Part shown: positions 18,251-30,253 of the stretch, in pieces
Layout: the number at the start of each line of letters is the position of its first letter
How positions within the stretch are numbered: the first letter of the stretch is position 1
Assembly: GCA_029267955.1 (NCBI GenBank)
Contig: JAJUHI010000002.1
Span: 1-46,291, forward strand
From: Sporobacter termitidis
GTDB taxonomy: Bacteria > Bacillota > Clostridia > Oscillospirales > Oscillospiraceae
Direction: 5' to 3'
DNA length: 46,291 bases
The notes under the pieces: model-generated
What the model saw: only the letters and a program-made list of their open reading frames with translations
What the model was told of the DNA's origin: nothing
Databases searched by the model: none
Position numbers and translations under genes: made by a program

Positions 18251-18367
18251 TCAGCCGCCCGATTGCGTGCCCGTACGGGACGGACACCGGACATACTCCT
18301 CGGAAGTGACCAGGTCGCAATGCCTGCAATCTCCCGAATCATCGCATATTGCGCACTTTTTAGGCAT
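18251..18367 (-). CDS. Putative small Cys-rich protein (38 aa), DnaJ-type zinc-finger-like
   Basis: Own translation: MPKKCAICDDSGDCRHCDLVTSEEYVRCPSRTGTQSGG*; weak GGGA upstream of ATG; not in the supplied track. Confidence 0.4.
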   Translation of the reverse strand: MPKKCAICDDSGDCRHCDLVTSEEYVRCPSRTGTQSGG

Positions 18368-27151: not shown

Positions 27152-28588
27152 ATGGCAAAGGAAAAAAAGGTACAGCAGATCACCGATATGGACGTTGATT
27201 TTGCCCAGTGGTTTACCGATGTGGTAACGAAAGCCGAGCTCATCGATTACGCCGGTGTCAAGGGCTTTTTTATCCTGCGACCTTACGCCTTTGCCATCTG
27301 GGAGAACATCCAGTCCATCCTGGACAAGCGTTTTAAGGACCTCGGGCATGAAAACGTGTCGATGCCCGTCCTCATCCCCGAGAGCCTCCTCCAGAAGGAA
27401 AAGGACCATGTGGAGGGCTTTGCGCCCGAGGTGGCCTGGGTCACCCACGGCGGCTCGGAGGAGCTCAGCGAGCGGCTGTGCGTCCGCCCCACCTCCGAAA
27501 CGCTGTTTTGCGACCACTGGAGCCACGTCCTGCGCTCCTGGCGCGACCTGCCGATGCTGTACAACCAGTGGTGCAGCGTGGTGCGCTGGGAGAAAACCAC
27601 GCGCCCCTTCCTCCGGGGCCGGGAGTTCCACTGGCAGGAAGGCCACACCCTGCACGCCACGCGGGAAGAGGCCGAGTTTGAGACCCAGCAGATGCTCAAC
27701 GTCTACGCCGATTTCTGCGAGAACAGCCTGGCGATGCCGGTTATTAAGGGCCAGAAGACGGAGAAGGAGAAATTCGCCGGCGCCGTGGCCACCTACACCG
27801 TGGAGTGCATGATGCACGACAAGAAAGCGCTGCAGGGCGGCACGTCCCATTATTTCGGAGACGGCTTTGCCCGGGCCTTCAATATTCAGTTTACCGACAA
27901 GGACAACAAGCTGGCCTATCCGCACCAGACCTCCTGGGGTATGTCCACGCGGATCATCGGCGGCATCATTATGACCCACGGCGACAACTCCGGCCTGGTG
28001 CTGCCGCCCAAAATCGCCCCCATCCAGGTGATGGTCATCCCCATCGCCATGCACAAGGAGGGCGTCCTTGAAAAGGCCGCCGAGCTGGTGTCGCGGCTCA
28101 AGGTCGCGGGCATACGTGTTAAGAGCGACGTCTCCGACCAGAGCCCGGGCTGGAAGTTTGCCGAATATGAGATGAAGGGCATCCCCCTGCGCATTGAGAT
28201 CGGCCCCAAGGATATCGAAGCCGGCCAGTGCATGGCCGTCCGCCGGGACAACGGCGAAAAAATCCCCGTCAGCCTGGACAGCCTTGAAAAGAGAATCCCC
28301 GAGCTATTAGAGGAGGTCCATCAGGGGCTCTACCTTAAAGCGAAGAAGAACCTGACCGAGAACACCCGCCCGGCCAAAACGGTCGAGGAGGTCAAGAGCA
28401 TCATCGCGGAGAAGGGCGGCTTTGTCAAAACCATGTGGTGCCGGGACCTGGAATGCGAGATGAAAATGAAAGAGCAGGCGGGCGTCACCTCCCGCTGCAT
28501 GCCCTTTGAGCAGGAAACCATCGCCGACACCTGCGTGTGCTGCGGCAAGCCGGCGGACACCATGGTCATCTGGGGCGTGGCTTATTGA
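27152..28588 (+). CDS. proS: Proline--tRNA ligase (archaeal/eukaryotic-like short form)
   Basis: [33 protein letters not shown]; start trimmed to ATG with AAGGAG upstream. Confidence 0.96.
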
Positions 28589-28600
28589 CCGATATATCAC

Positions 28601-28639
28601 CCGGGGAGACGGCGTATCCGCGCCGCCTCCCCGGTTTTT
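28601..28639 (+). terminator. Intrinsic terminator downstream of proS
   Basis: CCGGGGAGACGGCG-TATCCG-CGCCGCCTCCCCGG followed by TTTTT. Confidence 0.85.
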
Positions 28640-28663
28640 GCAGCCCCACCGTTTTTATTTATG

Positions 28664-28692
28664 TTGAAAAATCGGGATTTTTGTTATAAAAT
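28664..28692 (+). promoter_or_regulatory. Candidate promoter upstream of riboswitch
   Basis: TTGAAA-N17-TAAAAT. Confidence 0.5.
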
Positions 28693-28726
28693 ATGGTTTA
28701 TCCATATTGAATCCATATTAAACACT

Positions 28727-28842
28727 GCTCCGATAATGGCAAACCCGGCGAAAGCCGGGGACGCAAAACCACGGGTCTAAAGATAAAGCGACTGGGCGCA
28801 CAGTTATATCGCTTATTCCATGACGGCCGGGCTGCCGAAGAG
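28727..28842 (+). ncRNA. Cyclic di-GMP-I (GEMM) riboswitch
   Basis: ATGGCAAACCCGGCGAAAGCCGGGGACGCAAAACCACGGGTCTAAA...ATGACGGCCGGGCTGCCGA: GNRA tetraloop stem, GGGACGCAAA core and tetraloop-receptor helix all present. Confidence 0.92.
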
Positions 28843-28845
28843 GCC

Positions 28846-28891
28846 GCTAGCGCATTTGGCTGTGTGCCTTTTACAGGCATGCGGCTTTTTT
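28846..28891 (+). terminator. Likely riboswitch expression-platform terminator
   Basis: TGCCT-TTTAC-AGGCA with flanking CCGC/GCGG, then CTTTTTT. Confidence 0.6.
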
Positions 28892-28921
28892 CTGCGCGGC
28901 CATGTCGGCAGGGAGGTTCAC

Positions 28922-30205
28922 ATGATTAATCTCAGCGTCATCAAAAACATCAAACGCCTTAAAAAATGCGCGGCCGGGACGGTGATCACCGGCACCGGCA
29001 GCAAACATATCCTTTTTGTCGTCATCAAGGGCGAAATCGGCGTTTACACCGATTACAAGTTCCCGAGCAGCACAAAGACCGCGGCGCTGGGCCCCGGCGA
29101 CCTGTTCGTGGACTCGGCCCTGCTGCAGGACAAAAAGACGTCGTATACAACCGTCGCCCAGAGCGAGTCCATTATCCTGCCAATCGACAAGCAGAACGCG
29201 CTGGAGTTTATGCAGGAGGAGCCGGCGTTGGCCCTTGAGCTGCTCAAGGAGCTGTCCGCCCGGTATGACAGCATCGGCGCCGCTTACAAGGCGCTCACCG
29301 GGCAGTACTATCAGCACAGCGCCCAGCCGTCAGACAACGGCGTGCCGGCGGCGTCTGAAAATGGCGGCGCGGCGGCGCCCGAACCGGCGCCCCAGCCGCC
29401 AAGCGGCGTTGCAGGCAAAACAAGCGGCGCTTTAAAGGCTGCCGCCGCAAACGAAACCGCCGGCGCGCCCCAGGTTGCCGGCCTGTTCCCCGAAGGGCAC
29501 GGCCTGTACAGCTTAAAGCTCTGCGACCCGGAATCCCCGTACCTGATGACCAAGTCGTTTACCTGCCCCGTATGCGGCGGCAGTTTTACCGCTTCCGTGG
29601 TGCGGTCGTCAAAGCTTGTCGTCACGGCCACCGACCCGGATCTCCGGAATTACTACAAGGATATTGAGCCGCTTTACTATGAGGTGGTCACCTGCCCCCA
29701 CTGCCTGTACAGCGCGTTGCAGGACGTTTTTGACAAGCCGGACAAAAAGCGGCCGGCCATCCGGGAGGCGATGGAGGCCGTCAGAAACGGGGTGCAGATA
29801 CCCCTCGGCCCCGATAAAACCACCGAAACGGTGTTCGCGGGATATTATCTGGCTCTTCACTGCGCGCCGGTCAGTTTTGACAACCACCGGCTTCACATGG
29901 GCAGGCTGCTGTACAAGCTCAGCCGCGTTTACCGTGACGCCGGGGATGAAGCCATGGAAAAAAGTACCGCCGGCCAGGCTCTGGAGCATTTTCTTCACGT
30001 CTATTCCACGACCAGCATGCCCCAAAGCCAGGAGCAGCAGCTCTGCATCAACATCGCCGAGCTGTATTTCAAGCAAAACGATTACAACAACGCCGTGACC
30101 TTCTTCGCGAAAGCCCGGTCCCTGCACTGCACGCCCGCCCTTAAAAACCACATCAACAACCGCATTTACGACGTGCGCACCGCAGCCACCGAAAAGCGTC
30201 AGTAA
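28922..30205 (+). CDS. Cyclic-nucleotide-binding-domain protein with C-terminal DUF2225
   Basis: N-terminal Crp-like beta-roll (GTVITGTGSKHILFVVIKGEIGVYTDYK); low-complexity linker; DUF2225 CPVCGGSF...CPHCLYSAL; GGGAGG RBS. Confidence 0.8.
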   Translation: MINLSVIKNIKRLKKCAAGTVITGTGSKHILFVVIKGEIGVYTDYKFPSSTKTAALGPGDLFVDSALLQDKKTSYTTVAQSESIILPIDKQNALEFMQEEPALALELLKELSARYDSIGAAYKALTGQYYQHSAQPSDNGVPAASENGGAAAPEPAPQPPSGVAGKTSGALKAAAANETAGAPQVAGLFPEGHGLYSLKLCDPESPYLMTKSFTCPVCGGSFTASVVRSSKLVVTATDPDLRNYYKDIEPLYYEVVTCPHCLYSALQDVFDKPDKKRPAIREAMEAVRNGVQIPLGPDKTTETVFAGYYLALHCAPVSFDNHRLHMGRLLYKLSRVYRDAGDEAMEKSTAGQALEHFLHVYSTTSMPQSQEQQLCINIAELYFKQNDYNNAVTFFAKARSLHCTPALKNHINNRIYDVRTAATEKRQ

Positions 30206-30223
30206 TATTTGCTTTGCATAATA

Positions 30224-30248
30224 AAACTGCCGGTCAATCCGGCAGTTT
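30224..30248. terminator. Bidirectional terminator between convergent CNB-DUF2225 gene and nfo
   Basis: AAACTGCCGG-TCAAT-CCGGCAGTTT with T/A tracts. Confidence 0.88.
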
Positions 30249-30253
30249 TTTCA

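Follow-up and report, generated by a model that had tools for sequence, protein, structure and literature searches.

The class I cyclic di-GMP (c-di-GMP-I, or GEMM) riboswitches that are functional in C. difficile all act as OFF switches by termination, and Bc2 of B. thuringiensis is a class I switch that acts in the ON direction (PMC6366702). One described system, C. difficile Cd1, carries an RF01051 aptamer located before the flgB operon. A second precedent concerns DUF2225, a protein family labelled as being of unknown function. Leptospira biflexa requires the DUF2225-family gene LEPBIa0550, found by phylogenetic profiling, for full motility, according to a preprint that describes a mutant with partial complementation (PMC12236494).

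The window considered here is a 46,291-nucleotide stretch of Sporobacter termitidis DNA, namely contig 2 of a genome that is fragmented, 2.64 Mb in size, and 87% complete. On its plus strand, a c-di-GMP-I aptamer at 28728-28840 precedes a gene (28922-30205) for a 427-aa protein with a cyclic nucleotide-binding (CNB) domain, a DUF2225 domain, and a TPR-like C-terminus. The locus resembles Cd1 in its aptamer fold, contact residues, and intrinsic terminator, and also in its OFF logic (here predicted) and motility-type target; it differs in that the target is a single CNB-DUF2225 gene rather than a flagellar operon. On balance, we favor a reading in which a canonical c-di-GMP-I riboswitch controls this gene by termination, most likely in the OFF direction, and in which the product is a motility-associated protein. 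The riboswitch itself is ordinary and conserved; the interest lies in what its target suggests about DUF2225. No earlier report of this riboswitch target was found in the literature searched, and searches there for GEMM together with cyclic nucleotide-binding, or for COG1655, likewise found nothing. The presence of a GEMM riboswitch identifies a gene as part of the c-di-GMP regulon, to which the locus would add an unstudied family. Combined with the Leptospira mutant and the flagellin co-occurrence described below, it lets the label "function unknown" give way to a motility hypothesis, testable in a genus for which a type strain, Sporobacter termitidis, is in culture.

Leader architecture and the direction of switching

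A sigma-70-like promoter candidate, TTGAAA-17-TAAAAT, lies upstream of the aptamer (28664-28692, plus strand) and has 10/12 matches in a consensus scan, although such a match alone is no evidence of function. Beyond the aptamer, the 5' UTR holds a complete expression platform of terminator, antiterminator, Shine-Dalgarno sequence, and start codon, all on the plus strand. The intrinsic terminator (28858-28891) is composed of a hairpin with a 12-pair stem (28858-28886) and a T6 run (28886-28891), and is the single terminator-like hairpin in the region 28560-28960, as compared to a mean of 0.4 in shuffled sequence. The Shine-Dalgarno sequence AGGGAGG is found at 28910-28916 and the ATG at 28922. 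This predicted layout agrees with the transcription termination arrangement proposed in the initial annotation, which had also placed the hairpin and its CTTTTTT immediately before the ribosome-binding site and ATG; the hairpin and T6 are as described, but "immediately" is slightly loose, as 18 nt separate the end of the T-run from AGGGAGG. A second terminator, with the hairpin AAAACTGCCGG...CCGGCAGTTTT and a T-run, follows the gene (30223-30251, plus strand), and the transcript is probably monocistronic because the next gene is convergent.

The antiterminator is formed by a 5' strand at 28838-28851, which overlaps the 3' strand of P1, and a 3' strand at 28859-28872, which coincides with the terminator's 5' arm and loop; its assignment draws on fold probabilities and on pairing that is kept in four species. 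In the four Sporobacter leaders the 12 pairs of the terminator helix are standard in 95.7% of cells, and those of the antiterminator (AAGAGG-N-CRY... just after P1) in 89.4%, with one double change. Sliding either helix by 1-3 columns lowers the pairing to 17-62%. Covariation across the four leaders is little (the one double change) and does not exceed a shuffle control, so that the evidence for both helices is conservation of pairing and not proof by covariation. When the upstream segment is shuffled, only 0.006 to 0.042 of the shuffles, depending on the species, reach the native antiterminator (2000 shuffles each).

Because some antiterminator bases also belong to the P1 3' strand, stabilization of P1 by ligand should favor termination. 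At low c-di-GMP, the bases following P1 (AAGAGG...) would sequester the terminator's 5' arm and loop by base pairing, allowing RNA polymerase to read through; with c-di-GMP bound, P1 would be held, the antiterminator would lose its outer pairs, and the terminator would form. Equilibrium folding of the window RNA is consistent with this scheme, giving the antiterminator a probability of 0.82 in the free ensemble and the terminator 0.97 once P1 is forced. In the leader of a second Sporobacter genome (G001), the terminator rises from 0.15 to 1.00 when P1 is forced. The equilibrium folds of the remaining two leaders (G003 and G005) favor the terminator with or without P1 and do not discriminate between directions. 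P1 and the antiterminator have only a few bases in common, and in nascent-chain folds the antiterminator can form even with P1 forced. Taken together, and in keeping with the functional class I switches of C. difficile (PMC6366702), an OFF switch is the probable direction, and the protein would thus be made in the low-c-di-GMP, motile state.

The opposite direction, in which bound c-di-GMP would favor read-through and the protein would be a product of the sessile state, has a real but clearly smaller chance of being correct. Two other c-di-GMP-I riboswitches of this genome, one before an S-layer-homology protein (L008) and one before a gene that we take to be signal peptidase-like, with no Pfam match (L005), have a terminator that incorporates the P1 3' strand; this geometry predicts ON switching, opposite to the DUF2225 riboswitch. 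Bc2 demonstrates that class I ON switches exist (PMC6366702). In the window, however, the terminator begins 18 nt past the aptamer, the P1 3' strand lies outside it, and it is the 5' arm of the terminator itself that the competing helix engages.

The CNB-DUF2225-TPR protein and its degenerate phosphate-binding cassette

The AlphaFold model of the protein has a mean pLDDT of 85.5. The Crp-like CNB domain spans aa 14-99 (28961-29218, plus strand) and is recognized both by sequence (PF00027, cNMP_binding, E 5e-10; 39.6 bits, cut-off 27.5) and by structure (Foldseek to CRP-family structures, E 8e-8). It is followed by a low-confidence linker at aa 133-184 and by the DUF2225 domain at aa 208-417 (29543-30172, plus strand; PF09986, E 1e-34; 120.2 bits, cut-off 21), whose C-terminal half is helical and TPR-like. 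Cysteines 215, 218, 258, and 261 of DUF2225 are invariant in an alignment of 31 sequences. TPR matches are sub-threshold in the window protein, a profile search of the 427 residues found no HTH family, and there is no PHROG match. Foldseek results were dominated by CNB matches and yielded no fold assignment for the DUF2225 half. The Pfam matches and the model agree with the initial annotation's description of a Crp-like fold, DUF2225, and a TPR-like C-terminus lacking an HTH. CRP/FNR-type regulators have a similar N-terminal CNB fold, but the window protein has no HTH and its phosphate-binding Glu and Arg are replaced.

The cyclic nucleotide is bound by a motif termed the phosphate-binding cassette (PMC12422582). 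In the window protein the cassette is degenerate (aa 59-79, GDLFVDSALLQDKKTSYTTVA; 29096-29158, plus strand), with Asp64 and Thr73 at the positions of the conserved Glu and Arg; in the other three Sporobacter proteins, Asp and Ala replace the same Glu and Arg. Since both residues are replaced, binding of cAMP or cGMP by the window CNB domain is unlikely, while an unusual, non-classical ligand is possible. The initial annotation had envisaged one second messenger controlling the synthesis of a second-messenger-binding protein, so that c-di-GMP would set the amount of receptor for another messenger. The CNB fold is supported by sequence and model, and the GE...R cassette is kept by several more distant relatives without the riboswitch and by many relatives labeled Family XIII. 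This receptor role is nevertheless improbable for the Sporobacter protein, as cassette Glu and Arg are replaced in 4/4 Sporobacter proteins. The preferred reading instead describes a zinc-ribbon/TPR scaffold that would carry a Crp-like domain no longer binding cAMP or cGMP.

DUF2225, motility, and gene neighborhoods

The window protein is probably a motility-linked factor, a reading that draws on the LEPBIa0550 mutant (PMC12236494) and on the co-occurrence of DUF2225 with flagellin. Among 297 genomes of the order, flagellin is present in 11/11 genomes with a strong DUF2225 match and in 40/286 others (Fisher p 1e-9), where the strong set (E below 1e-20) was chosen after seeing the table and the p values are inflated by relatedness. 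Counted by genus, the figures are 6/6 and 23/139 (p 4e-5), and with three marginal DUF2225 matches added to the genomes, flagellin is present in 12/14 (p 1e-8). Flagellin was also matched in each of six additional DUF2225 genomes (G007, G010, G011, G013, G039, and G052), although G007 has a single match and that of G052 is weak. DUF2225 is absent from the majority of flagellated genomes in the order, and any dependence therefore runs one way only.

LEPBIa0550 belongs to the same Pfam domain family as the window protein, as named in the preprint (PMC12236494), although the L. biflexa homologue is distant from it. PF09986 matches the homologues identified in Leptospirales and Brachyspira. The spirochaete homologues fetched showed neither a CNB match nor a riboswitch. 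A broader and decidedly more tentative proposal is that DUF2225 is a motility factor from Spirochaetes to Clostridia, that Sporobacter uses an OFF riboswitch on DUF2225 and ON riboswitches for S-layer and export genes, and that the Crp-like domain is a ligand-free structural or interaction module. If true, this arrangement would be an RNA-based toggle that regulates swimming and settling inversely.

A prolyl-tRNA-synthetase-like gene precedes the window gene, and an endonuclease-IV-like gene faces it (both named from sequence). Neighbors of the homologues are unrelated (FtsW/RodA, TRCF, an amino-acid permease, an ECF transporter), and the neighborhood was rejected as a functional clue for this reason. 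No flagellar genes were present next to the homologues at the loci examined. GGDEF motifs occur near the gene in 3/35 loci, which was judged to be about chance level. At one locus in another genome (L103:1839-3962), 14 nt separate the end of a GGDEF-HDOD gene from a downstream CNB-DUF2225 homologue; the two may form an operon, which would connect the family with c-di-GMP. At a second (L106:1802-5245), genes for a SpoIIE-type phosphatase/anti-sigma protein and a STAS protein are located directly upstream of the homologue.

Aptamer conservation, ligand specificity, and other riboswitches

Covariance-model searches place RF01051 (c-di-GMP-I, GEMM) at 28728-28839 on the plus strand with 75.6 bits (gathering score 35) and RF03167 (c-di-GMP-I-GGC) at 28729-28840 with 72.5 bits (E 2e-15; gathering score 59); both scores are far beyond chance. 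The ligand contacts G20, A47, and C92 in Vc2 numbering, which we take from known structures to be positions 28738, 28765, and 28835, are G, A, and C in the window. Because this specificity triad is canonical, c-di-GMP is the likely ligand. The 3',3'-cGAMP variant of GEMM-I has A at position 20, and a cGAMP preference was rejected for the window aptamer, which has G. The initial annotation's clear GEMM aptamer, its G at the Vc2 G20 position, and its predicted preference for c-di-GMP over cGAMP are all borne out, the first by the Infernal/Rfam check that it had called for.

The DUF2225 gene is present in 4/6 Sporobacter genomes examined, and in 4/4 of these the aptamer lies directly upstream, together with a terminator and with an antiterminator built partly from P1 3' strand bases. 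The other two Sporobacter genomes have no DUF2225 gene, but they do have flagellin and GGDEF genes as well as c-di-GMP-I riboswitches at other loci. No aptamer was found in the DNA fetched around homologues outside Sporobacter, which implies that the pairing of riboswitch and gene either arose in the genus or was lost elsewhere. That the aptamer is a non-functional remnant is very improbable: only 11 C. difficile c-di-GMP riboswitches are functional (PMC6366702), but the window aptamer combines a high model score with intact binding residues, and both aptamer and expression platform are kept in four species whose proteins are only ~50% identical. The idea that it is a c-di-GMP-I-GGC variant with another ligand, prompted by cmscan, which chooses by E-value and prints RF03167 for this aptamer, can be set aside almost entirely, given the higher RF01051 bit score and an A, not the GGC-consensus G, at position 47 (28765).

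The G at the A47 position of the RF03167 consensus is taken here as the mark of the GGC variant. The window aptamer resembles that family in overall sequence, above gathering, and differs from it at this residue, so the GGC label is no sign of altered specificity and filing under RF03167 was rejected. Oscillospirales c-di-GMP-I aptamers reported under RF03167 have CGCAAA, that is, A47, in those read by eye, and a loose pattern count of position 47 across Oscillospirales aptamer loci gives A in 64, G in 3, and T in 1. In this order, the RF03167 model thus seems to pick up c-di-GMP-I aptamers of the canonical type.

The genome has six GGDEF matches and one weak EAL match, and c-di-GMP is therefore probably made in this organism. 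No c-di-GMP-II riboswitch was matched in the genome, and the control likewise gave no match. Further c-di-GMP-I riboswitches of the genome (L001, L002, L006, L007, and L008), with two tandem pairs among them, lie ahead of genes whose products are exported or located at the surface: a CAP-family protein, a subtilase (Peptidase_S8), and the S-layer-homology protein. On the minus strand of the window, an S10-Clostridia ribosomal leader (18267-18350) scores 35.3 bits, barely above its gathering score of 35.1, and is followed downstream by ribosomal-protein-like ORFs.
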